IMG/VR virus record: IMGVR_UViG_3300021964_000065
Span: 1 to 60,201 of that record
Length of the DNA stretch: 60,201 nucleotides
Source: a virus
Strand: one strand, 5' to 3'
How positions within the stretch are numbered: position 1 is the first letter of the stretch; every line of letters starts with the position of its first letter. Below, in pieces: positions 5,545 to 37,883 of this stretch. Made by a program: the position numbers and the translations under genes. The notes under the pieces are model-generated. The model was given only the letters and a program-made list of their open reading frames with translations. It was not told where the DNA came from and did not search any database.

Positions 5545-7254
5545 ATGAACACAACGGAGATCAATGGATTTTTGATTGATAAATTCAATCAACATGGTCT
5601 ACCAGAAGGGAAAACGCAGGGGATTTGTCCCCTGTGCTCTTTAGATAGACAACCTAAAAATCAGAAAGCAAACTGTGCTTCTTATGATTGGGAACGTGGT
5701 CTTGGTACTTGTCACAATTGCAACAAAACATTTCAGCTACATTCATACCAGCGTAAAGGTTCATCAAATAAAGTATACGTTAGGCCAACTACGCCTGACT
5801 TTATTGAAGAAGTGAGCACTAACGTGGAGAAATGGTTTGATGGTCGAGGTATATCTAAAAACACGCTAAAGGAACTTAAGGTTACTGAAGGTGCTGAATT
5901 TATGCCGCAGACGGGTCAAATGGAAAATGCTATACACTTTAATTATTTTATAGGAGACCAATTAATAAACGTCAAATATAGAGATGGACGCAAAAACTTT
6001 AAATTATATAAAGGGGCGGAAAAAGTATTTTACAATATAAATAGTGTTGTAGGATATGAATACTGTGTTATAGTTGAAGGTGAAATGGACGTACTAAGCT
6101 TACATGAGGCAGGAATTGAAAATGTAGTATCTGTACCTAATGGTGCAACTTTAAATAACAACAACCTTGACTATTTAGATAATTGTATAGATTATTTTAC
6201 TGATAAAGATAAAATAATAATTGCAGTTGATGATGATGATGCTGGACAAGCTCTACAACAAGAGTTAGTTAGAAGATTAGGTGCGGAGATATGTTATTTA
6301 GCTACATTTGAAGATTGTAAAGACGCAAATGAATATTTATTAAAATATGGAAAAGAAGAACTGGCGAAGCGTATTGCCAAAGCAAAACCGGTCCCTCTTG
6401 AAAACGTTACAACGTTCAGGGACATTGAAGCAGAAATTACAGATTTTGTTGAAAATGGTTTTAAACCCGGTTTCCAAGTTGGATTACCTAATTTCGATAG
6501 TATTTTCAGTACTTATACTGGTCAGTTTATTACTGTTACTGGTATTCCTTCTAGTGGAAAGTCTGACTTTGTTGATCAAATGGTGGTGGGGTATAATGTA
6601 AATTATCAATGGAAAACCGCTTTTGCATCGCCTGAAAACGCTCCAACATATTTGCATGCTCATAAGTTAATGAGAAAAGTTTGGCAAGATATGCCATCTA
6701 AAAAAGATATTGGTACAGATAAATGGAATCAAGTAGCAGAACATATTAATGATAACTTTTATTTTATTGATATGGATAAATATAGTTTAGAAGCTGTATT
6801 ACGCAAAGGTGCTGAATTAGTAAAACGTAAAGGGATTAAATGTTTAGTTATTGATCCTTTTAATAAAGTTAGATCTAATGATGCATCAGGAGATGTTAAT
6901 GTATACACCCTTGAATATTTATCTAAAATAGAAATATTTGCAAAAAAATATGATGTTTTAGTTATTGTGGTTGCTCATCCTACTAAAATGTATAAAGATG
7001 CTAATGGTAAGATTGAAGAACCTACAATGTATAATATTAAAGGAGGAGGAGAATGGTATGATGCCAGCTATCATGGTATATTAGTTCACAGAGATTATGA
7101 GCAAAGAACTGTTAAAGCTAAAATATTGAAAGTCAAATTTCAAAACCTTGGTGAAAATGGGGCTGAAGCTCATTTTAAATGGGAACCAAAATCAGGTTGC
7201 TTTATACCACATGAGCCTTTAGATTTAACTGAGGAAAAAATGCCTTGGGAATAA
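5545..7254 (+). CDS. Bifunctional DNA primase-helicase (T7 gp4-like)
   Basis: A 569-residue fusion. A zinc-ribbon (C28, C31, C56, C59) comes first. A TOPRIM primase core follows: VEGEMD at 177-182 and the acidic AVDDDDAGQAL at 227-237. The DnaB/RecA-type helicase has Walker A GIPSSGKS (333-340) and Walker B CLVIDPF (433-439). It would unwind the fork and make RNA primers. No DNA polymerase gene was recognised in the window, so the phage may rely on the host polymerase. The start follows TAAATTAAATTAA directly. Confidence 0.93.
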   Translation: MNTTEINGFLIDKFNQHGLPEGKTQGICPLCSLDRQPKNQKANCASYDWERGLGTCHNCNKTFQLHSYQRKGSSNKVYVRPTTPDFIEEVSTNVEKWFDGRGISKNTLKELKVTEGAEFMPQTGQMENAIHFNYFIGDQLINVKYRDGRKNFKLYKGAEKVFYNINSVVGYEYCVIVEGEMDVLSLHEAGIENVVSVPNGATLNNNNLDYLDNCIDYFTDKDKIIIAVDDDDAGQALQQELVRRLGAEICYLATFEDCKDANEYLLKYGKEELAKRIAKAKPVPLENVTTFRDIEAEITDFVENGFKPGFQVGLPNFDSIFSTYTGQFITVTGIPSSGKSDFVDQMVVGYNVNYQWKTAFASPENAPTYLHAHKLMRKVWQDMPSKKDIGTDKWNQVAEHINDNFYFIDMDKYSLEAVLRKGAELVKRKGIKCLVIDPFNKVRSNDASGDVNVYTLEYLSKIEIFAKKYDVLVIVVAHPTKMYKDANGKIEEPTMYNIKGGGEWYDASYHGILVHRDYEQRTVKAKILKVKFQNLGENGAEAHFKWEPKSGCFIPHEPLDLTEEKMPWE

Positions 7255-14301: not shown

Positions 14302-17300
14302 TTAATTAGCTATTTTTCTTGTAGCTGTTTTTCTTTTTATAGTTTTTCTGTTTATAGTTTTTCTTTTTATAGTTTTTCTGTTTTTTCTTAATGGAGTTTT
14401 AGATTTTTTAGTTTGTTTTTCAATCATACCTAATTCCCATTCTCCCCACCCAAGTGACAATGCTATTGCTTGCCACAATTCTGTTTCAGGTTCCATAGCT
14501 GTTTTTATGTGATCTAGCTTAGTAACAATTCTATCAGCAGGTATATTAGTTCCTGCAGAAATAACTTTTCCTGCGGCTAAAAAAGCTGGGTTTTCTAAAC
14601 TTAAGCCTTCATTAAATACCTTCTTTCGCGATTGCTTATATTTAAAGGTATTACCAGCAGAAATTAATTTTCTTAATTTAGAATTTATAGGAGGCGAAAT
14701 TGAAGTTGCGGCAATAGCTGCTTTAGTGTAGTCAGGTCTATTGCTTTTTGCTTGATCAATAATTTCAAGTATTACATTTTTAACAGTAGAAGCCGCTGCA
14801 CCATAAACACCCATGCCTCTCAAGAAAGTATCAGCAGAGCTGTTTGCTACTCTAAAGTATTTTTCTTTCTTTTCCGGTTCTTCTTCGTCATCAAATAATA
14901 ATGTGAATAATGCAGACTGAAGTGAAGAGAATATAATGTTTTGTATCACACCATAATAAGCAATTTTACTAATATTTGTCTTCCAATCTCCTCTTCCATT
15001 ATATAAATCTAACGCAGCCTTTTTCTGAAGTCGGGCATATTGCATAGGAGTATTTGCAAAAGCTAAAACAACACGTCCTAAACTACCGGCTTGCTCCATA
15101 GAAACTCTATCTGGCCTTGACGATTGTTGTGTTTCTTCAGCAATCTCCTGAAAATCAGTAAATGCCTTTTGTTCTGCCTCTTGTTTGGTTAAACCTTCTT
15201 TAACATACTTATTAATTCTATTACGATAAAATGTAGCACCCCCGGAAGCAATTGCAAAGCTATCCGCTATTTGAGTTGGTGTAAAACCAATTTTTAACAA
15301 AGCATTGAACAACGCTCTAGGTGATCTTTCATTTCCTTTAGTTGCTTTAGCAATTTCATCTGCACTAATGTCTGTTTGCAAACCGCTTCTTCTTTGTTTT
15401 AAGAAATCAGAATTGAATAGGTTAACAAAATCTTTTCTATATTGTCCAAAATTAGCAAGAGCAATTGCTGCGTTAATAGGATTATTATCTGAAAAATTTA
15501 TAAAGTTTACTGTAGACAAAGTTTGTAGAACGGCAGATCTTGCGTTAAAGAACATGATAGCACCCACAGAATTATTCACCCAATCCATCCAAGCTCTTTC
15601 CTGTTTGCTTGTTCCGAATTTTCTATTAACACCTGTTTTCATTCTATAAAGAATGTTTTCAAGAGCCTCAACATATCTTTCGCCGTATAGCCCTCTTAAC
15701 TTTGTAATGTTTTTTTCGGAAAATATTTCATTTACGTTTTCTTGCCATTCAGATAAAAATTCAGATCGTTTTGTTTTATTAATATATCCAATTAAATCGG
15801 TAGTAATATCACCGTCTACCCAATTGTTTTCAGGTTTAGGGTAACCCTCTGAATTTAAAGCCATTAAATTATCAGCAAAGCTTTTAAACTTTTCGTTTTT
15901 ATTTACAGCTTTTATAGCATCATTAACTTCCCCCTTCTTAATGTTTGGTATGTCAAATCCTTGTTTTTGCCACATATACATTCTAAGAGATTGCTCGTTG
16001 GTAAATCCAGATTCGTTTTGTTTTGTTAATCCTCCAGGAACATCTTTTTTGGCACGTTGCTTTAATACAGACCATTCACGCATTGCTCTTTGCTTTTCAG
16101 ACTCATATGCTTGAATACCTCTAGAAAATGGGCGTAATAAGTTTTCACGATACCAATCCATTTGTTGGTTACCTTTTTCGCCTTCAGATAATGTTGTGTA
16201 TAATAAACCTACAAAATCATCTGCTGAATATGGAACAAAAATAGCTCCTTTGCCTTTGCCTTTAGCCATTACTCTAGCCTTAGCAGGGGAGAATCTTTCT
16301 GCCCATTTAACACCAGTAGATTCTTCTAATATTTGGTTAAAACCTTTATTTAGTGATTTAGAAAGTTTAATCTGCCCTTCTTTATATACACTTTTAATAT
16401 TTTTGTATACAATTCCATCTGCTATATCTTGCTTAAAAGCCTCAATAACTAAAGGGTGTTGCATTCTATTTTTACCACTACTTTTTAAGTTTGCGGTTGT
16501 AAGAGCTTTATCAACTCTTTTTGTAACTAAATTTACTTGAGCATTATCAAATTCTTTTTCTAATTGTTCCTGAGATATTTTTCCGTCTAAAAAATTATTA
16601 GAAGCTAATGTTATTTCTAATATTGGATTTTGATGTTCTAAAGTTGTTTCTTTAGTAGAAAGATTTTCAACATACATGCCAGCTTTTGCTATTTTTCTTA
16701 AAGCACCAATTTGGTCATTAGCTAAAAGCTTTATATGAGCTTTACCTTCGTTAATTAAATTATTATCTTTATAATAAACCAATAAATCTAAAATATATTG
16801 AGAAGCTTTTTTTGCTTCATCATTTATTCTGGATGTATATTCACTAAAATTTATTTTTATATCAGTTGTTGATTTATATCTATTAATAGGTGTATTATTT
16901 AAAAATAATTTTTTACCTCTACCTAATGGATTTTTATCTACATTAAAGCCTTCTATGTTATATTTTTTTAATAAAGTTTTAAGTACTTGATTAAAAATAT
17001 GTTGAATTTTTGTTATATTAGGAAGCCCATTAAATGTTGTAATTGCTTTTGATTCATTTATAAACCAATTTAAAATTACTGTTGAGTAATCATTTTTTGA
17101 TGCATTTTTTAAACGATTTTCAAGTAATTTTTTTGATGATTCATAACCAAGCTCTGCAATTTCTTTTTTAAGAGCAATTCCTGTTGCTTGTTTTACTTTT
17201 AAAAAGTAATTTCTAGTTAATTTACCATCAGTATCTAAAACAGCTTTTGAAATTAAATTTTTACCAGTTTCATCCGCTATAAAACTATTTGTTGCATTAA

Positions 17301-20300
17301 TTACATTTTCTAATATTTTATCTAAATTTAAATCTTTTTCAACTTCTTCATTAAATTTATTAAGAATAAAAAAATTTAAATCATCTATAAAGTTTACATT
17401 TTCAGACTCTATATTTTTTAAAATATCACTTTGTAATTTATTTATAATTTTACCAGCAGCAGCTTTTTCTTTTGGGCTTAGACTAAATTTAATATTAGCA
17501 GGATTTGCCTCATAAATTATAGCATCGGATATTAATGGATATTTATTACTTAATTTATCTAAACTTGTTTTATTAAGTATTCCGGCTAGCTCTTGCTGTT
17601 CTAAACCATATTCAGTTTTAGCAGTATTAGCTAAGCTTTTAGAAAATTTAAAACCTTCTGCTCTATCAACTTGCTTAGCTATTAATGATTTAAAGTTTTC
17701 TGGTAATATCTCACCCGTTATTCCAGCTATGTCTTGATACTTTTGAATAACATCAGGATCATTTAATACTTCCATTGTAGCATCAAACGCAATCTCTTCT
17801 GCAATACCCTCAACAATAGCTGTTTTTCTAGCCCCTTTAGTTGATCCACCAACCTCAGCACCTAAAAAATATTTAATCCACTCAGCTTTGTTTATTTTCT
17901 TTTTAACATATATCTTATTACCTTCTGCTGTTTTTTCTCTAACTTGTTTACCATTCTTATCTAAAACAGGCTCGGCGAATTCTTTAAATCTTCTGTTAAT
18001 TAAAGATTGTGGCATTTTGCTATACACAGATTCAAAATTATCTCTTAAGAAAGATTCGTAATCAGCTTGTTTTCCAACAAATTGGAGCATAGGCTTTTTA
18101 AGTTCCGTTCTAAATCTTTTTTGTAATTCAAACCTAAACTTTGGATCTTGAGGATTTGGTAATTTAGTACCAAACGTTTTTACTACCGCATTTTTAACAT
18201 CAGTTATAAGCCCCTCAGGTAGCCCAATTTCTTTTCTTAGGCTTTTTATTTCATCAGCAATCTCAGCTTGCTCTTGAGTCTCTATAGCCTCCTCCGTAGC
18301 TGTATCTGTAACACCTTTGGCCTCTGTTACGTCTACAGTAAATTCAGTATCCAGTATACGATTAGCTGCTTCAATAGCTCTACGGCTTAAAAATGTATTT
18401 ATATAACCAGCGAGTGGAGCACCTTTTGCTTTTTTAGGTGTGTATTCCATTACCATGTCTAAAATGCCACGCTTACCAGTCTCTATTTCATCCTTAAGAA
18501 GCTCATATTCAAACCCAGGAACATCTCTATACTTATTTACTAGCTTGTCTACAATTGGCTTAAACTGGTCAATTATATCCATTGCGCCAGCAGTGCCTTG
18601 TTCTTCGTATATACGTTGAACTTCATCAGATGCTTTTTGTTGTCTTGATTCTTTAATTATTGAATCTAACTCATCAATCTCTTTTTCTTCTTCTGGTTCA
18701 GCAGGTTTTATAATTCTACTAGAGCCTGTTGACAACACATCTTTTGAAAATGTTTGTACCATGCTCCAAGCATCTTCTGCCGAATTAATATTAAAGTTAT
18801 CAGATTCTTCTTTTCCTATAACGGAACCAATAATTGACTTTATATTGGAAGCAAACTTTTGCAAAAAATTAAAATCAGTTTCTTTTATTACCTGTAAATT
18901 AACAGCGTCGGCAGTAAGATTTATTAATTCTTCTGCTTGGGCTTTAGTGCCGTCATATAAAGGTAGTCTATCAAAAATAGAATTATATTGTTTTTGAGTC
19001 AGCTCTTTATTGTCCAGCTTAGTTTTTAATAAAACCTTGTAGTCCTCTTTAATATTATTGAATTGTTCTTCTGTAAAACCTTTCTTTTTAGCTAAAGCGT
19101 GAAAATACTCATGCAAAGTTGTAGAAGGATTTCTAGCTGCAGCTCTTTCAACAATAGTATAGACATTTTCGCTACTATTGAAAGCAAACCCTCCGTCTGC
19201 GTCGTTTTCCCAAATTTCAACTACTTCTTGAGCTTCTTTCTTATTTATAACATTTTTATCTCTTAAAGTAAACAAAGTTTCTTCAGAACTAACAAAATCT
19301 TTTATAGATTCAATCTCATTTGAATAAACATTAACAACCTTATTGGCTAATTTATTTAATGAATTATTTCTTTTAACAGCTTTGTCATTTATCTGGTGTA
19401 TCTTAAAGCCTCTATTAAAATCTCCAGATTTTAAACCTTCTGGTATTTTTAAATTTTTATACGTAGAGCCTTCTTCAATTAATGATTTTTTTTGATTTTG
19501 ATAATCATTATACTCTTTTTCAAGGTCTTTTCTTATTAAATCTTTACTTTGTTCATTTAAATTAGAAGATGCTATTTTATTCCATCTTTGATTAACTTTT
19601 TCAGATTGTCTTTGTGCTTCGAAAACAGCTTTTTGCTCTGATTGAGAAAGATTTAAAAAATTAGTAGCAGTAAAATCTTGATTTAAATTTAATTCTTTTA
19701 TTTTATTTCTAACAGATTTTTTTGCCTCTGCTCTTACATTTATATCTAAATCTAAATTTGTTATCGTATTAGATAACTCTTCAATATCTTTTAAGGTTTT
19801 TTGTATTTTACTTTTATTATTCTTATCGGTTATAACGTCTAAAACATAGGCTTTTGCTAAACTACCTGCCTCAGCTACTTTAAACCCACTACCTATTAGT
19901 GCGCCCTGTGCAGCGGACTCAGTGACTCCTTCAAAAATATTTTTATCTTCACCTAATATTACATTATCAGCTACATTACCTATAAGTGTATTTAAACCCT
20001 CGCCCCCACCTTCTAAAGTGCTTCCTTTAGGAATATCTAAAATAGCTTGCTTAAAAGCTGGTTTAAATCCTTCTTTATAAAACAAAGTATTAGCAGATTT
20101 TAAATCTTTAACTAATTTTAAAGTAGTTAATTCTTCAGTATATTTTTCAGCTGCGCCATATATAGCACTAACTCCTACTTTTTTTAGATCAGTAGTACTC
20201 AGCACTTTTGTATACTCATCTATTTGTTTTTTAATATTTATTTTTTCAAAATCATCTTCTGTTTTATCATAAAGTTTCTGCAATTTAGGCAATTGTCTTT

Positions 20301-21489
20301 CTGCTTCTTTTTTTTCTAATTCAAATTCAGACATTCTTCCTCCATACCCCATTGCAAAAAATAAAGATGGAGCTGCTGCTCCTGAAAAAGCCGCTATTCC
20401 AGACGGCACAAAATTAACAAAAGCATCTGCCCCCCAATTAACTAAATCATTAAGATTTGAAATGCTTTCTACAGGTATTGTTTTAGGTAAAGTTTTTTCA
20501 GCTTCTTTTTTTAATTCCTCTCTGTATTCTAATAAATCTTTTGTATAGGATTTATCTTTTCCAGCTTCGGACTTCAGCATGTCTAAAGTAACTAAAGGCC
20601 CTAAAACTAAATCTGTAGCAGTAGACGCTAAAACATTAGATAGTTGGTCAATATTATTATAAGATCTTTTGAAAGAATCAATAAATTCATTTTTTCTATT
20701 TAAAACAGAAGTATTTTTTAAAAAATTGCTTTCCATTTCAGTGGTTGATTTTAAAATATCATTATATTCAGCTATTTTATTATTATAATCTTGCTTTGAT
20801 ATTTCAATTCCCATTTTTTTATTTTCTTCAAAAAAACTTTTAATATTTTTTAAAGAATTAATATTATCATTTATTTTAGAAAATAATTCATTATTTGATT
20901 TTTGTAAAGAATCTTTTATTGATGTTTCTTTATTAAGTAATTGAACGCGTTGATTATACGGAATATTTTCCATAAAATCACGCTGATTATTTGATATTTT
21001 TTGATTTACTTCTTCAAAATTTAATTGAACAGGCTCAATAGTGTTATTTATTTTAAAATTATCATAATCTTGTTTTTCTGATAATTTAAATTGGCCCTTT
21101 TTAAATCTATTTAATTTTTCTTGTGTAGCCTTTTTATTTTCAAAATCAACATTTAAGGCACTAGCTTTTTCAAATTCTTTTCGTACTGCACTGTATTCTT
21201 CTTCAGAAATTTTTTCTAATTCAATAGTAGTATCTTCTACTGTACCAGTTTTAGGTTGTTCTGGTAAAGCCAATGAAATATCTTCCGATGGTAACTCCGT
21301 AACGGTTGGTTGTATTTCGGGTGTTGCATTTACCTCCGCAGGCACACCCTGATCGATTTCCTCCGGAGGATCTATCTTTCCCGATTCTGCAGAAGTTATT
21401 TCTATAGCGTCAGGATTGTCTTGCAAAAATTGAGTTGAAATATCATCTGGAATATTATAGAACTCATCATTTAATTGAAATCTAGGCAT
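14302..21489 (-). CDS. Giant internal virion/ejection protein with protease motif
   Basis: A 2395-residue protein, 12% of the genome. The long Lys/Asn/Glu-rich N-terminal half is helical. LHEYFHALAKKKG at about 792-804 carries an HExxH zinc-protease motif (793-797). Residues about 975-1055 (GKRGILDMV, PLAGYINTFLSRRAIEAANR) resemble sigma region 2. Hydrophobic segments appear near 2175-2210. The C-terminus is a run of Lys/Arg/Thr 5-residue repeats. It resembles the multi-domain polyvalent proteins that some phages inject with DNA. Position beside other internal-virion-type genes supports this. Confidence 0.7.
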   Translation of the reverse strand: MPRFQLNDEFYNIPDDISTQFLQDNPDAIEITSAESGKIDPPEEIDQGVPAEVNATPEIQPTVTELPSEDISLALPEQPKTGTVEDTTIELEKISEEEYSAVRKEFEKASALNVDFENKKATQEKLNRFKKGQFKLSEKQDYDNFKINNTIEPVQLNFEEVNQKISNNQRDFMENIPYNQRVQLLNKETSIKDSLQKSNNELFSKINDNINSLKNIKSFFEENKKMGIEISKQDYNNKIAEYNDILKSTTEMESNFLKNTSVLNRKNEFIDSFKRSYNNIDQLSNVLASTATDLVLGPLVTLDMLKSEAGKDKSYTKDLLEYREELKKEAEKTLPKTIPVESISNLNDLVNWGADAFVNFVPSGIAAFSGAAAPSLFFAMGYGGRMSEFELEKKEAERQLPKLQKLYDKTEDDFEKINIKKQIDEYTKVLSTTDLKKVGVSAIYGAAEKYTEELTTLKLVKDLKSANTLFYKEGFKPAFKQAILDIPKGSTLEGGGEGLNTLIGNVADNVILGEDKNIFEGVTESAAQGALIGSGFKVAEAGSLAKAYVLDVITDKNNKSKIQKTLKDIEELSNTITNLDLDINVRAEAKKSVRNKIKELNLNQDFTATNFLNLSQSEQKAVFEAQRQSEKVNQRWNKIASSNLNEQSKDLIRKDLEKEYNDYQNQKKSLIEEGSTYKNLKIPEGLKSGDFNRGFKIHQINDKAVKRNNSLNKLANKVVNVYSNEIESIKDFVSSEETLFTLRDKNVINKKEAQEVVEIWENDADGGFAFNSSENVYTIVERAAARNPSTTLHEYFHALAKKKGFTEEQFNNIKEDYKVLLKTKLDNKELTQKQYNSIFDRLPLYDGTKAQAEELINLTADAVNLQVIKETDFNFLQKFASNIKSIIGSVIGKEESDNFNINSAEDAWSMVQTFSKDVLSTGSSRIIKPAEPEEEKEIDELDSIIKESRQQKASDEVQRIYEEQGTAGAMDIIDQFKPIVDKLVNKYRDVPGFEYELLKDEIETGKRGILDMVMEYTPKKAKGAPLAGYINTFLSRRAIEAANRILDTEFTVDVTEAKGVTDTATEEAIETQEQAEIADEIKSLRKEIGLPEGLITDVKNAVVKTFGTKLPNPQDPKFRFELQKRFRTELKKPMLQFVGKQADYESFLRDNFESVYSKMPQSLINRRFKEFAEPVLDKNGKQVREKTAEGNKIYVKKKINKAEWIKYFLGAEVGGSTKGARKTAIVEGIAEEIAFDATMEVLNDPDVIQKYQDIAGITGEILPENFKSLIAKQVDRAEGFKFSKSLANTAKTEYGLEQQELAGILNKTSLDKLSNKYPLISDAIIYEANPANIKFSLSPKEKAAAGKIINKLQSDILKNIESENVNFIDDLNFFILNKFNEEVEKDLNLDKILENVINATNSFIADETGKNLISKAVLDTDGKLTRNYFLKVKQATGIALKKEIAELGYESSKKLLENRLKNASKNDYSTVILNWFINESKAITTFNGLPNITKIQHIFNQVLKTLLKKYNIEGFNVDKNPLGRGKKLFLNNTPINRYKSTTDIKINFSEYTSRINDEAKKASQYILDLLVYYKDNNLINEGKAHIKLLANDQIGALRKIAKAGMYVENLSTKETTLEHQNPILEITLASNNFLDGKISQEQLEKEFDNAQVNLVTKRVDKALTTANLKSSGKNRMQHPLVIEAFKQDIADGIVYKNIKSVYKEGQIKLSKSLNKGFNQILEESTGVKWAERFSPAKARVMAKGKGKGAIFVPYSADDFVGLLYTTLSEGEKGNQQMDWYRENLLRPFSRGIQAYESEKQRAMREWSVLKQRAKKDVPGGLTKQNESGFTNEQSLRMYMWQKQGFDIPNIKKGEVNDAIKAVNKNEKFKSFADNLMALNSEGYPKPENNWVDGDITTDLIGYINKTKRSEFLSEWQENVNEIFSEKNITKLRGLYGERYVEALENILYRMKTGVNRKFGTSKQERAWMDWVNNSVGAIMFFNARSAVLQTLSTVNFINFSDNNPINAAIALANFGQYRKDFVNLFNSDFLKQRRSGLQTDISADEIAKATKGNERSPRALFNALLKIGFTPTQIADSFAIASGGATFYRNRINKYVKEGLTKQEAEQKAFTDFQEIAEETQQSSRPDRVSMEQAGSLGRVVLAFANTPMQYARLQKKAALDLYNGRGDWKTNISKIAYYGVIQNIIFSSLQSALFTLLFDDEEEPEKKEKYFRVANSSADTFLRGMGVYGAAASTVKNVILEIIDQAKSNRPDYTKAAIAATSISPPINSKLRKLISAGNTFKYKQSRKKVFNEGLSLENPAFLAAGKVISAGTNIPADRIVTKLDHIKTAMEPETELWQAIALSLGWGEWELGMIEKQTKKSKTPLRKNRKTIKRKTINRKTIKRKTATRKIAN
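14327..14386 (-). repeat. Four 15-bp tandem repeats at the giant gene's 3' end
   Basis: Four back-to-back 15-bp units (GTTTTTCTTTTTATA on the plus strand, with G/T variation at one site) encode KTI[K/N]R repeats near the C-terminus of the 2395-residue protein. The result is a strongly basic tail that could contact DNA. In-frame units allow copy-number change without breaking the gene. Confidence 0.8.
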
Positions 21490-32810: not shown

Positions 32811-34208
32811 TTATGCAAAGTTTCCAAACAATACGAAGTTATTCGCAGCTTGAGTTACTAAACATCTTTCAGATAAATAGTGCACTTCCATCTTGTCAAC
32901 ACCAGAAGTTGAAGCTCCTCCAACAGATCCAGTGATCCAAGATTTCATTTTTCTATCATCAGCTTCAGAAGCACGGTAACGTACATGCAAGAAAGGACGC
33001 TTAAGGTTTTTACCAAGAATTTGGTCGTAAACAGTAGACGTTCCTGCAGGTACTAAAATACCAGTAACATCAGAAGCAATTTCTCCACGTGTAGCAGCAT
33101 CATTTAAGTATTTCCAGTCAGTTTTGTAGAAGTCATAAGAACCTCTGCGGAAACCACTAAATCCTAAATTGATAGCCATATCCTCACTGTTGTTGAATAC
33201 TCCGTAAGAAGTTCCACCAGCACCGTAAGAATTTTGTGCAGCTAACATGTCATCAATATTTAAAGAAAGATCACGATTCAAGAAAAGAACATTTTCTTCA
33301 ATAGCTCCTTGCTTATCAAGCTTCTTTAACATATTGTCAAAATCTGCTAAATCATCCGAAGCAGAAGAACCGTCTAGTCCATCTTCATGAATATGACCTC
33401 TGCTTGTAACAGCAGCAAATAAACCTTCAGATCCTGCAATTGTAGAAGTAGAAGTATTAATATTCTTCTCAGCTTCAACTAGTGCCATTTCTGTATAGTC
33501 TTCAAAACGTGAACGAGTTTCTCCTTCAGCTTTGATATACCATAAGTATCCAGATTCTCCAGATTCTCCAGTAACTTCAACCCATCCAATTTGAGAAGCA
33601 TCAGATCCAGAGATTTCATACTTATCTTTTAAGATAATAGGGTTGTTAGTGTAAGATTGGAAACTTGGCGTTACCGCTTCGTTCATTGAATCAGTACCTT
33701 TTGCAAATTCAGAACCGTATACAAATAATTTGATTGCTGAAGCAGTTGTTGCAATTCCAGCAGCAACACATCCAGTATCACTTGTATAACAGTTAACTTT
33801 AATAGAGTTCGCATCAGGAACTTGAGATACATAAGCCTTTACTGTAGCAGTACCATCAGAGATAACAACTGTTTGACCAACACGAATTGCATGACCAGTA
33901 AGTCCTGTAATAGTATTAGCTTTAGCTGTATCAGCTCCCATAGTCCCACCTGAATAAGAAAGGTGTAGTCTTCCTTGTTCTGACCAAATAACTTGATCTG
34001 AACTCATAGGCATTTCAGCGCCTACCATTTTCAAAAATCCACCTACTGTTCTGTCACCGAATTTTTCAACTTCAGCTTCATATAGATCTGGTAAATATTG
34101 TTGTGCCCATCCTGCAGTACCTGCAGCGGTAAAATCAACGTAGTTAGTTGATAATGTTTGTTTTACTGGAGCTGGAGTTATAGTTCCGCCCCCTAGAGTA
34201 ATAGCCAT
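32811..34208 (-). CDS. Major capsid protein
   Basis: A 465-residue protein placed between scaffold and connector genes. Its codon use is visibly richer in C-ending codons than its neighbours, as expected for the most abundant virion protein. Segments such as DLYEAEVEKFGDRTVGGFLK, GETRSRFEDYTEMALVEAEK (spine helix region) and FLHVRYRASEADDRKM are consistent with an HK97-type capsid. It is followed by a terminator hairpin. The call rests mainly on context and size. Confidence 0.8.
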   Translation of the reverse strand: MAITLGGGTITPAPVKQTLSTNYVDFTAAGTAGWAQQYLPDLYEAEVEKFGDRTVGGFLKMVGAEMPMSSDQVIWSEQGRLHLSYSGGTMGADTAKANTITGLTGHAIRVGQTVVISDGTATVKAYVSQVPDANSIKVNCYTSDTGCVAAGIATTASAIKLFVYGSEFAKGTDSMNEAVTPSFQSYTNNPIILKDKYEISGSDASQIGWVEVTGESGESGYLWYIKAEGETRSRFEDYTEMALVEAEKNINTSTSTIAGSEGLFAAVTSRGHIHEDGLDGSSASDDLADFDNMLKKLDKQGAIEENVLFLNRDLSLNIDDMLAAQNSYGAGGTSYGVFNNSEDMAINLGFSGFRRGSYDFYKTDWKYLNDAATRGEIASDVTGILVPAGTSTVYDQILGKNLKRPFLHVRYRASEADDRKMKSWITGSVGGASTSGVDKMEVHYLSERCLVTQAANNFVLFGNFA

Positions 34209-34225: not shown

Positions 34226-35431
34226 TTATTTTTTTATTTTTATTCTTAATTTAGAACTATCATTCCCACTAATTGCTCTTACTTTTACTCCACCCGCATC
34301 AACAAAACCATTAGCACTTTTTCGAGGATCCATATTAATATTTTTGGATTCCGCTTCTAATTGTTTAATAGCATCTGCTTTGCCTTGTTCGTAAAAGTGA
34401 CTTGCAATTTTGTCAGAATTTTTAGCAGCAAATAAAGCTTTATGATAAGAAGAAGGATCTGAAAGCATACCTTTATCATCTAAGTAACTACCTAGAAATT
34501 CAGTAATATTACTTTGTACATTCTTCACTTGACCAACATCATTTACTTTAAACCTATATTTATTATCTCCAACTTTAAAATCAAAACCTTTGAAATCTTC
34601 GTTAAAGAAACTATTAGTTTTTTCGGTAAATGTATTTGCTTTAACCTGTTGCTCGGCAGTTAGTTTCGACTGCTCCTCTTTGTAAGCATTGTAAAATTCA
34701 ATTGCTTCTTGTTGTTCTGGAGCTAACTTAGAACCCAACTTGACTTCTTCGTAATATTTACTCTTTAAACCTTCAAGAAAACCTTTGGCTTTCACAAGCT
34801 CTTCTTTATAAGCTAATTTCTTACGTCTAATATCTCGATCATCATCAATCTCTTCGTCATAAGAAAAATTATCTTCAATTAAAAAATCAATTTCATCATT
34901 ATCTAAATGAGATTTTGATTGTTTATAGTACTCTTTTAACAATGTATCTTCATCCACAGTTGAGTAATCTGCATTTAACCTTACGTAGTCTTCAAGGCTA
35001 CCCCCGGTTTCTTGCATAAATTCAACCACCTTCTGTATATTCTCAGGTAATTCAATTTTATTGTCTACAGCTTCTTGAGCCGGAGCCTCTTCAGCTTTTG
35101 TTTCTGTAATGTTTTCAACTTGTGTTTCTGTAGTATCTTCTTCTACTAATTCTAATACTACTTCTTCTTTTTCTTCTTTGGAAGGTTCTTCGGTACTCCG
35201 TACTTCTTCTTCCACTTTTTCGCTAGATTCGGATTCGTTGCGAACAGGAATCTCATCTGTGCTTTGCTCTGGAATGGCATCTTCTTGTTTTTCAGGTGGT
35301 TTTGATAAATCAACTTTATAAGTTGTGTTTCCCGAGTCTGTATTAACTCCTGCATTTTGAAGTACTGTTTCTTCTTTCTCCGCAGTACTAGGCGTTTCGC
35401 CTTCTACTAAATTAACTTTGTAGTCTTCCAT
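34226..35431 (-). CDS. Capsid scaffolding protein
   Basis: A 401-residue protein encoded directly before the capsid gene. The first 130 residues are very acidic and disordered-looking (EEKEEVVLELVEEDTTE). The middle is helical, and the C-terminus is basic (SSKLRIKIKK), as in scaffolds that bind the capsid inner surface by a positive tail. Residues about 51-92 are encoded over a second gene in another frame of the same strand (35158-35280). Confidence 0.75.
   Translation of the reverse strand: MEDYKVNLVEGETPSTAEKEETVLQNAGVNTDSGNTTYKVDLSKPPEKQEDAIPEQSTDEIPVRNESESSEKVEEEVRSTEEPSKEEKEEVVLELVEEDTTETQVENITETKAEEAPAQEAVDNKIELPENIQKVVEFMQETGGSLEDYVRLNADYSTVDEDTLLKEYYKQSKSHLDNDEIDFLIEDNFSYDEEIDDDRDIRRKKLAYKEELVKAKGFLEGLKSKYYEEVKLGSKLAPEQQEAIEFYNAYKEEQSKLTAEQQVKANTFTEKTNSFFNEDFKGFDFKVGDNKYRFKVNDVGQVKNVQSNITEFLGSYLDDKGMLSDPSSYHKALFAAKNSDKIASHFYEQGKADAIKQLEAESKNINMDPRKSANGFVDAGGVKVRAISGNDSSKLRIKIKK
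35158..35280 (-). CDS. Small basic phage protein nested inside scaffold gene
   Basis: A 40-residue frame on the same strand as the scaffold but shifted. It reads MPFQSKAQMRFLFATNP, then LAKKWKKKYGVPKN and a Lys-rich end. This matches a widespread group of tiny phage proteins (MPFxSKxQMR, then P.LAKxW), known to me from many phages but not named with certainty. The acidic GAA-rich scaffold frame reads as AAG (Lys) in this frame. The specific N-terminal match is much harder to explain by chance than the Lys tail. Confidence 0.75.
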   Translation of the reverse strand: MPFQSKAQMRFLFATNPNLAKKWKKKYGVPKNLPKKKKKK

Positions 35432-35465: not shown

Positions 35466-37883
35466 CTATCTGGGGCTAAATTGCTCTAACCCAAATCCCC
35501 CTAATGTATCAAAACTAGATGATTCAAAATCTTTGGGGGGTTTATTGTTTTTTCTTTGATCAATCAACTCAGATTGTTGAGAGGCTTGGATTTTAGTTCT
35601 TTTATCCTTGCGATCTTCTTTATACTCTTCTTTATTGTTAATCACTTGTAAATCTAGTTCTTTAAGCTGCTTGCTTAGTTCAAACTCATACGTCATAAGT
35701 TCTTTTTTATATTGAACTTCATACCCCATTTTTTGAACTTCTAGCTCGTGTTCAGCATTTTTAACTTGTAGTTTTGTTTGAGATAAAGCTTGCTGTTTTT
35801 GTACATCAGCTTGTGCAGCAGCCTGAGCCGCCTGTGCATTAGATTGAGATTGTAATGCAATATTTTCTTTTTGCATTTCCCTATCTTGATTCATTTTCTT
35901 TTTTCTTCTAAGCTTTAATAGCTCATTAGCTAACTTTAAGTTTTTAACATTTCTAATATCAATAGCATCTTCTAAAAATATTTGATCACGTGATAAAGCC
36001 ATTTGAATGTTATTTTCTAATAATTGCTTTTCTTCATCATCAGGTGATAAATCTAAAAATATCCCAAAGTCATGTAAGTGCAATTCTTTTAAATCGTCTA
36101 AAACACCTACATTATATTTACCTATACTTTGAATAAAATTATTTCTAGTACTAGAGTATTCCAATACATCAGATATTCTTAATGCAACTGCTTCCGCTGT
36201 TTTCAATGTTAAATATAAACCGGCTTGTAGTATGTGTCTTGTAGCTGTATTTGAATTAGCAGCAGCTAACTTCTGTAAACCAACTAGTGCATTAGAATCA
36301 GGTTTGCTACCATCTCTTGCTTCATTTAGACCCGTTACATCACGAATCATTTGCAGATAATAATTATAAGAGTTTATTAAGCTAGATATTTTAGCATTGG
36401 CACCCGAAGTTTGCAGTTCTTGAATAGGTACTCTACCATTATTAAACTCGCCATCTTGGTTCATAGATCTACCAATTACTGAACCCGTTTGAAAATACAT
36501 ATTTAATGCTTCCTGCGGATTGTAATTAGTACCATTGCCTAAATCTATTTCAGCAATACCATCTGCATCTAAAAATACACCATCTGGCACCATTCTTGAC
36601 AACACTTGTTGTAATTTTAAATGAGTTAATTGAATCATATCAGCAAACGTAGTCATACGTCCTACTAAAGATTCAATAGCTCCTTTGTAAATTCTAGGTG
36701 CTACAATATTATAACTAAACTGTGCTTTTGTAGTATCAGTTTTTGGCCTTGTCATATTTTCAGCCAATTGCCATTTTAAAAGTTTGTTGTGCCCAATAAC
36801 TTTAGCACCTTCGTATATAACCTCTATTGATCTTGAAACTTTCTTAAACCTAGCTTTGTTGTCCTTAGGTGGGTCAAAAGTATCATCTTTTTTGATCACT
36901 TTGCTTCCGCCAGTACTAGTATCTTTTATTTTATATACTTGATTATTAAAAGTTTTATACTCAAAATACAAAACATACACATAAGAACTATCAGAAGAGT
37001 CTTGAGCATTGTGGGACCTATTATATAAAATGCCATTAGCTCCTTTATCTTCTATTTCTTTTATATCTTCAGTAGTTAAATCTGGATATTGCTTTTTTAA
37101 ATCAACAATAGAAACTCTACGCACCTCACCAACATAATATATATCGTCAAAATAAGGTGATTCGGTATAAGAATAAACAAGATCAGAAGGATCTACATAA
37201 TCTATTTTAATCCCTTCAGCAGTGTTGAAACTGTTTTTACACGAAGACATACCAATGGTTACAGCATCATAATTTAATCTTCTTTGTAAAAGATCATATT
37301 TATTATGGTCAAGAACATTGTTTATAGCTTCTTCTTCGGCAATCTCAATAGACTGCTTGTATTCAAGCTGCATGTGTAACTCTAATTCTTCTTCTGTTTC
37401 AGGAAGCTTTTCTTTATCATTCTCATACACATCAATACCTAACTGTGCTTGAATTTGATCAGATATCTCTCTTGTTTGCATATCCTTCAACATGGATTCT
37501 ACATAGCTACTTCTTTTCTTTATAGAAGCTGGATCCTGAGAATATGCTTTAATATCATAAGCTCTTTCAGACATACCATTAACTACAATATCAACAAACT
37601 TTGGTATAATTGGAACAGGCTTCCAATCTAAATTAAGATAAGACAAATCACCATTAATAGATAATTCATCTTTATATTTTTGAATAGACTGTTCACCTCT
37701 TGCGTATAGTCTTAATCTGTGAAAATTATCTCTACTTGCAAAGTAACGCATTGTCCCAGAGTCTCTCTTGAACCATTCGCTTTCAATTGCCCGCGCTATT
37801 TCTAAACCATATGCATTTGCTTTTTTTTCAGAATCTGAAACCGCTTGGCTCGGAAATATACCTTTTGTTTGAGTTTTTAACAT
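35466..37883 (-). CDS. Portal protein
   Basis: An 805-residue protein encoded directly after TerL (stop and start abut). RLRLYARGEQSIQKYKDEL, DWKPVPIIPKFVDIVVNG and ERAYDIKAYSQDP are typical of large portals of Bacteroidota phages and crAss-like relatives. The 140-residue C-terminal part is a Gln/Ala-rich coiled coil (QSNAQAAQAAAQADVQKQQ), consistent with a barrel extending into the head. It would form the dodecameric DNA gate. Confidence 0.85.
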   Translation of the reverse strand: MLKTQTKGIFPSQAVSDSEKKANAYGLEIARAIESEWFKRDSGTMRYFASRDNFHRLRLYARGEQSIQKYKDELSINGDLSYLNLDWKPVPIIPKFVDIVVNGMSERAYDIKAYSQDPASIKKRSSYVESMLKDMQTREISDQIQAQLGIDVYENDKEKLPETEEELELHMQLEYKQSIEIAEEEAINNVLDHNKYDLLQRRLNYDAVTIGMSSCKNSFNTAEGIKIDYVDPSDLVYSYTESPYFDDIYYVGEVRRVSIVDLKKQYPDLTTEDIKEIEDKGANGILYNRSHNAQDSSDSSYVYVLYFEYKTFNNQVYKIKDTSTGGSKVIKKDDTFDPPKDNKARFKKVSRSIEVIYEGAKVIGHNKLLKWQLAENMTRPKTDTTKAQFSYNIVAPRIYKGAIESLVGRMTTFADMIQLTHLKLQQVLSRMVPDGVFLDADGIAEIDLGNGTNYNPQEALNMYFQTGSVIGRSMNQDGEFNNGRVPIQELQTSGANAKISSLINSYNYYLQMIRDVTGLNEARDGSKPDSNALVGLQKLAAANSNTATRHILQAGLYLTLKTAEAVALRISDVLEYSSTRNNFIQSIGKYNVGVLDDLKELHLHDFGIFLDLSPDDEEKQLLENNIQMALSRDQIFLEDAIDIRNVKNLKLANELLKLRRKKKMNQDREMQKENIALQSQSNAQAAQAAAQADVQKQQALSQTKLQVKNAEHELEVQKMGYEVQYKKELMTYEFELSKQLKELDLQVINNKEEYKEDRKDKRTKIQASQQSELIDQRKNNKPPKDFESSSFDTLGGFGLEQFSPR

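Follow-up and report, generated by a model that had tools for sequence, protein, structure and literature searches.

A conserved 40-codon reading frame of phages lies nested in a putative head scaffold gene and, in sister phages, in unrelated giant genes

Introduction

In phage lambda, the o-spanin gene Rz1 is nested out of frame within the i-spanin gene Rz, and in the Microviridae (phiX174 type) genes overlap such that both frames of one stretch of DNA are translated. Nested phage genes are known already from these two systems, and the usual account of overlaps is that new small proteins arise within old genes. The protein family PHROG 1375 consists of tiny basic proteins of the MPFKSKAQ...LP type, is annotated as being of unknown function, and has an available family description that does not include a nested state inside other genes. 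Here we describe a protein of this type that is encoded within a putative scaffold gene, together with its relatives that are free-standing or nested elsewhere.

Results

A basic 40-aa frame inside an acidic putative scaffold gene

The locus is located in a stretch of DNA of 60,201 bases, the whole of which was analysed and is referred to as the window, and the small gene is present in this record as a single copy (Table 1). The nested open reading frame (ORF) starts 151 nt inside the host gene. A preliminary description, made from the sequence alone, had claimed that a conserved phage protein is overprinted in the scaffold gene; this main claim is supported, and the coordinates, strand, ATG start and 40-codon size that it gave all held exactly. 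The pattern of a Glu-rich host and a Lys-rich nest that it reported also held, with a mean net charge per residue of +0.31 for the nested protein and -0.27 for the host, as did its claim that the N-terminal match is unlikely to be due to chance (see below). The nested protein has a net charge of +14 in 40 residues and is predicted to form two short helices (residues 6-15 and 17-27; pLDDT 83).

Table 1 Features of the window discussed in the text
Feature	Coordinates	Strand	Remarks
Nested gene, 40-aa basic protein MPFQSKAQMRFLFATNPNLAKKWKKKYGVPKNLPKKKKKK followed by a stop	35158..35280	(-)	+1 frame of the putative scaffold gene
Putative initiation region of the nested ATG, A-rich TGAAAAACAAGAAG	35281..35294 (-14 to -1)	(-)	4/6 favourable adenines; inferred
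Host gene, 401-aa acidic putative head scaffold protein	34226..35431	(-)	Between portal and capsid genes
Portal protein, upstream neighbour	35466..37883	(-)	PHROG 6547, E 4e-151
Virion structural protein, probable major capsid protein, downstream neighbour	32811..34208	(-)	PHROG 13704, E 1.4e-103
Giant 2395-aa late gene, without nest	14302..21489	(-)	Distant homologue of the nest-hosting elemovirus giant gene

The host protein had no match in PHROG or Pfam, and no homology to a known scaffold family was found; the name scaffold is inferred from position and acidity, and the major capsid label of the downstream product is likewise an inference resting on position.

Synonymous recoding of the host gene produced a same-strand, out-of-frame ATG ORF of at least 40 aa in 44% of cases, and an out-of-frame length of 40 codons is therefore unremarkable; when only the nest segment was recoded, the nested ATG and 40 open codons were retained in 20% of recodings. 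The motif MPFxSKAQ appeared in 0.0165% of recodings in which the host amino acids were held fixed. What lies beyond chance is the motif and its conservation, not the length of the ORF.

Conservation among scaffold relatives

Relatives were gathered by scaffold similarity using six search peptides, one of which overlaps the nest while the other five do not, resulting in 80 loci. All 80 have an ORF starting with MPF at the same place and in the same +1 frame, and the host frame is open in 80/80. Across 109 distinct scaffolds, a set whose motif-found portion was ascertained for the nested ORF, the nested start falls in a single alignment column.

One sequence, present in two records (L023/L024, an 8,297-base contig and a 49.5-kb contig), is a natural loss mutant with a TAG after residue 22, the loss of two aromatic residues and an intact scaffold. 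No other copy of the small gene was found in the 49.5-kb record. Loss of the nested gene may possibly be tolerated, since the nest is broken in this sequence while the scaffold is intact and the longer record has no second copy.

Selection in the two frames

Substitutions were taken from 47 disjoint pairs and classed by their effect on both frames, with bootstrap 95% intervals. Within the overlap, the ratio of nonsynonymous to synonymous change (N/S) was 0.174 (95% interval 0.119-0.233) for the nested frame and 0.667 (0.494-0.837) for the host frame, whereas in the remainder of the same genes it was 0.809 for the +1 frame and 0.228 for the host frame. Stop gains in the +1 frame were depleted in the overlap only (0.37 versus 0.93 elsewhere). 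Host third positions contributed 31% of substitutions in the overlap versus 59% in the main part of the gene, and host first positions, which are the wobble positions of the nested frame, contributed 49% versus 25%. This inverted substitution pattern indicates that the nested frame is the constrained one in the overlap, and the 40-aa ORF is very likely a selected gene. Of the properties looked for in a nested gene pair, purifying selection on the nested frame as a protein was met, including in the giant hosts described below, and so was a host that is real, open and conserved across the overlap.

Free-standing homologues

The PHROG 1375 profile matched 52/52 scanned family members at E <= 0.1 (best E 2.2e-7), and the window protein alone matched it weakly (E 0.0044). 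Direct comparison of the window protein with two free-standing copies gave 67% identity over 39 residues and 71% over 34 residues (E 2e-20 and 1e-16, respectively, each from a single comparison). No family was identified by a Pfam search with the small protein, and nothing significant by a PDB fold search; PDB sequence matches to designed repeat proteins (about 5-7 bits per repeat) were rejected as spurious.

Sampling by DNA motif gave 112 distinct copies: 31 nested and 81 not, 12 of the latter being the N-terminal portion of a longer protein. The nested copies are all in one and the same phase (31/31), and host-phase stops are present in 44 of the 69 short free copies. The Phe3 codon of nested copies in this sample is always TTC, because TTT-AAR would create a stop in the host frame.

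Most annotated neighbours of free copies are TerL, portal, major head protein and head-assembly/scaffold genes, the exceptions being GroES, ribonucleotide reductase and glycosyltransferase genes. A free-standing relative in Streptomyces phage Vorvolakos adjoins the holin gene, and a free copy in Phage C75C1 is unannotated.

Two further arrangements were observed. In L256, L259, L287, L295, L300 and L319, MPFKSKAQ begins proteins that are longer (about 180-200 aa or more), and for this reason the small protein may also occur as a fused domain. In GC-rich contigs (L146, L148, L276, L289, L325 and similar), an ORF of 120-140 aa overlaps the small gene in the same +1 phase, starting about 28 nt upstream of it and extending about 220-260 nt past it; this could perhaps be a third kind of overlapping neighbour.

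The same small gene inside giant genes of sister phages

A second scaffold clade, comprising the Flavobacterium elemoviruses, ctfjg026 and 80 further contigs, has a scaffold without the nest. Where the small gene was found in this clade, it is usually within a giant late gene, again in the +1 frame (elemovirus, ctfjg026, G010, G014 and six further contigs). The elemoviruses and ctfjg026 belong to the same group as the window phage, with a homologous scaffold and the same tiny gene nested in +1, but differ in that the nest lies within an 11-kb giant structural gene rather than the scaffold; the elemovirus version of the small protein has 42 aa. In G046 the small gene stands free and follows, at a distance of 9-12 nt, an ORF with a match to the C-terminal portion of the giant elemovirus protein. 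The small gene had no match in 7/13 contigs with a nest-less scaffold, most of them fragments and one of 62.8 kb. The nest is unannotated in the public records inspected, namely two elemoviruses and ctfjg026. The giant protein of the window matches that of the elemovirus across about 450 residues (BLASTP E 2e-7).

Giant hosts align with each other on either side of the nest (e.g. L142/L161), and 14 pairs gave a nested-silent rate of 0.093 versus 0.028, with an N/S of about 0.3 for the nested frame and about 1 for the host. DNA similarity between scaffold-hosted and giant-hosted copies is confined to the small gene, with none past its edges: L032 (scaffold-hosted) and L166 (giant-hosted) are 77% identical across 136 nt, a stretch that begins 6 nt ahead of the ATG and ends 4 nt past the stop. 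Exactly one copy was present in each of the 18 records first examined; due to these records having been chosen for bearing the small gene, the informative point is that none has two. In a tree of the small protein, host context shifts repeatedly, and well-supported branches force at least three changes for the scaffold label and at least three for the giant label, although the tree is based on only 43 columns and most forks are unresolved.

Two observations concern sequence upstream of the nest in giant genes. In the elemovirus giant gene of L166, a decayed second copy (positions 6605-6637) precedes the intact nest by about 400 nt and reads MPFKSKKLMK and then a stop; the two copies share the same phase and the host reads QEDAVQKQ at both, suggesting that the unit was once duplicated or inserted in frame. 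A different short ORF, MPLKPLKPSKQKRKD..., precedes the nest by about 650-690 nt in the giant genes of L111 (ORF at 2350-2424) and L115 (ORF at 2308-2379); it shares the +1 phase of the nest and could be another nested gene.

Context of the nested start

An in-frame stop is present at most 10 codons upstream of the nested ATG in 96/109 scaffolds, which favours initiation at the conserved ATG and disfavours entry by frameshifting. Flavobacterium johnsoniae favours adenines at -3, -6, -12 and -13, with over-representation from -14 to -11 (PMC6847099), and related phages infect Flavobacterium. Starts were scored for adenines at six positions (-3, -6 and -14 to -11) using the determinants of that study. 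The mean number of favourable adenines was 4.74 for nested starts, 2.39 for other out-of-frame ATGs and 4.04 for the gene starts of the window genome itself. A position weight matrix (PWM) trained on the gene starts of this genome scored nested starts at -3.9 bits, real starts at +7.3 and other internal ATGs at -9.3; the adenine test, whose result was clearer, was picked after this outcome, which gave moderate support only. We infer that translation from its own ATG is most likely, in the absence of transcript, ribosome-profiling or peptide evidence. The small protein would be made from a late polycistronic mRNA by means of an A-rich start context of the Bacteroidota type.

Discussion

The comparison of synonymous change in the two frames that the preliminary description had proposed showed the nested frame to be constrained and the host nearly free over the nest, and the free-standing homologues that it had suggested searching for were found. 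Relatives in which the nest is broken while the scaffold is conserved, which would have refuted its claim, were not found save for the one sequence in two records (L023/L024). It had left undecided which frame shaped the other; this is resolved in favour of the small gene being the older and constrained one. Not visible to it was the nesting of the same gene, in +1, in unrelated giant genes of sister phages.

We conclude that the small gene is the older and conserved one, and that the host reading across it is newer and weakly constrained, because free homologues exist, N/S is inverted in the overlap, and the DNA shared between host contexts is limited to roughly the stretch between ATG and stop. 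The scaffolds without a nest (ctfjg026, 357 aa; elemoF, 339 aa) align to the window host protein from residue 127 only, and host residues ~1-126, which cover the nest, have no alignment with these nest-less relatives. In another phage (L320), a free copy lies 10 nt upstream of the head-assembly/scaffold gene. We infer, as the simplest history of the window lineage, either a 5' extension of the scaffold frame over a small gene that preceded it or an insertion of the small gene at this place.

The fixed phase is not accounted for by avoidance of stop codons. On random recoding of AT-rich nest-bearing contigs, the actual host frame opens in 0.35/31 genes and the other forward frame in 8/31, and all 31 hosts use the phase that is harder to open; stop-codon avoidance was rejected as the source of the bias, since the other forward frame opens much more readily. 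Possible explanations are that the gene is transferred as a unit with its phase kept, or that an acidic host peptide is selected for. A bolder reading is that the locus represents a recurrently relocating nested gene of ~130 bp with its own start signal, a unit that would enter unrelated late genes of phages or be overrun by them, invariably in a single phase, with one copy per genome, repeated changes of host gene and both frames remaining open; taken as a whole, we see this reading as equally poised between being right and wrong.

The best combined explanation, and a likely one, is a genuine old nested gene that is started from its own ATG and serves as a head or packaging helper, its expression and function being inferred. 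A small basic two-helix protein would assist head assembly or DNA packaging and would probably bind nucleic acid or an acidic partner. The helper function considered by itself is tentative, inferred from neighbours and charge, and in our judgement falls slightly short of being the probable one.

Four alternatives were considered. The one that survives best, and remains possible, is that the nested gene is real and has its own start but acts in host takeover or lysis, as suggested by the Vorvolakos copy beside a holin gene and others near GroES, glycosyltransferase and ribonucleotide reductase genes; against this, annotated neighbours are mostly TerL, portal, capsid and head-assembly genes, and the hosts of the nest are late structural genes. 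Programmed frameshifting from the scaffold, which would yield a fusion and not a free 40-aa protein, is very unlikely: in the window the nested frame is open for 25 codons upstream of the nested ATG, but most scaffolds have the nearby in-frame stop described above, and the ATG is invariant, as it is in free-standing copies. It is also very unlikely that the host-frame peptide (D/E/N-A-V/I-Q-x-Q-S-T-x-x-x-P-V...) is a conserved domain of which the small ORF is a codon by-product; although this string is shared by scaffold and giant hosts and never changes phase, the host frame has an N/S of 0.67 in scaffolds and about 1 in giant genes, compared with 0.17 and about 0.3 for the nested frame, and a host-frame domain as the driver was rejected on these values and on the host-phase stops in 44 of 69 short free copies. 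A chance ORF, with a +1 frame that happens to be open in a disordered, Glu-rich region and a motif that arose by coincidence, is all but excluded and was rejected on the conservation and codon tests, since out-of-frame ORFs of 40 aa are common on recoding but the 80/80 conservation, the inverted substitution pattern and the free-standing homologues are not explained by it.

Conserved phage genes may drop from view once they are nested, given that annotation missed the gene in the nested records inspected and in the free copy of C75C1. The occurrence of free, scaffold and giant states in one phage group constitutes a natural experiment on the formation and cost of overlaps. No report of the motif or of the arrangement was found in the open-access literature searched, and what appears to be new, within that scope, is a conserved small family whose members, within one phage group, occur free, in a scaffold gene and in unrelated giant genes, the nested ones all in a single phase.

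Like Rz/Rz1, the locus has a small gene on the same strand and in another frame inside a phage gene, and both products of Rz/Rz1 are used (PMC6139136, PMC5295617). The properties of a spanin pair of that type, a nested lipoprotein and a membrane host, were not met: no signal sequence or lipobox was seen by inspection in the 40-aa protein, which is Lys-rich, has no Cys and has the two short predicted helices, and the host protein is acidic and soluble-looking, unlike a membrane protein of the i-spanin type. Rz1 and Rz act together, whereas the nest described here occurs in two unrelated kinds of host gene and also free, with no need for host and nest to have a function in common. The usual direction of overlap formation is also reversed, in that newer host sequence has come to lie over an old and widespread small gene, in a single relative frame and in no fewer than two unrelated kinds of host gene; in overlaps of the phiX174 type a new small gene lies inside an old one, whereas here it is the small gene that is old and the host reading that is new.
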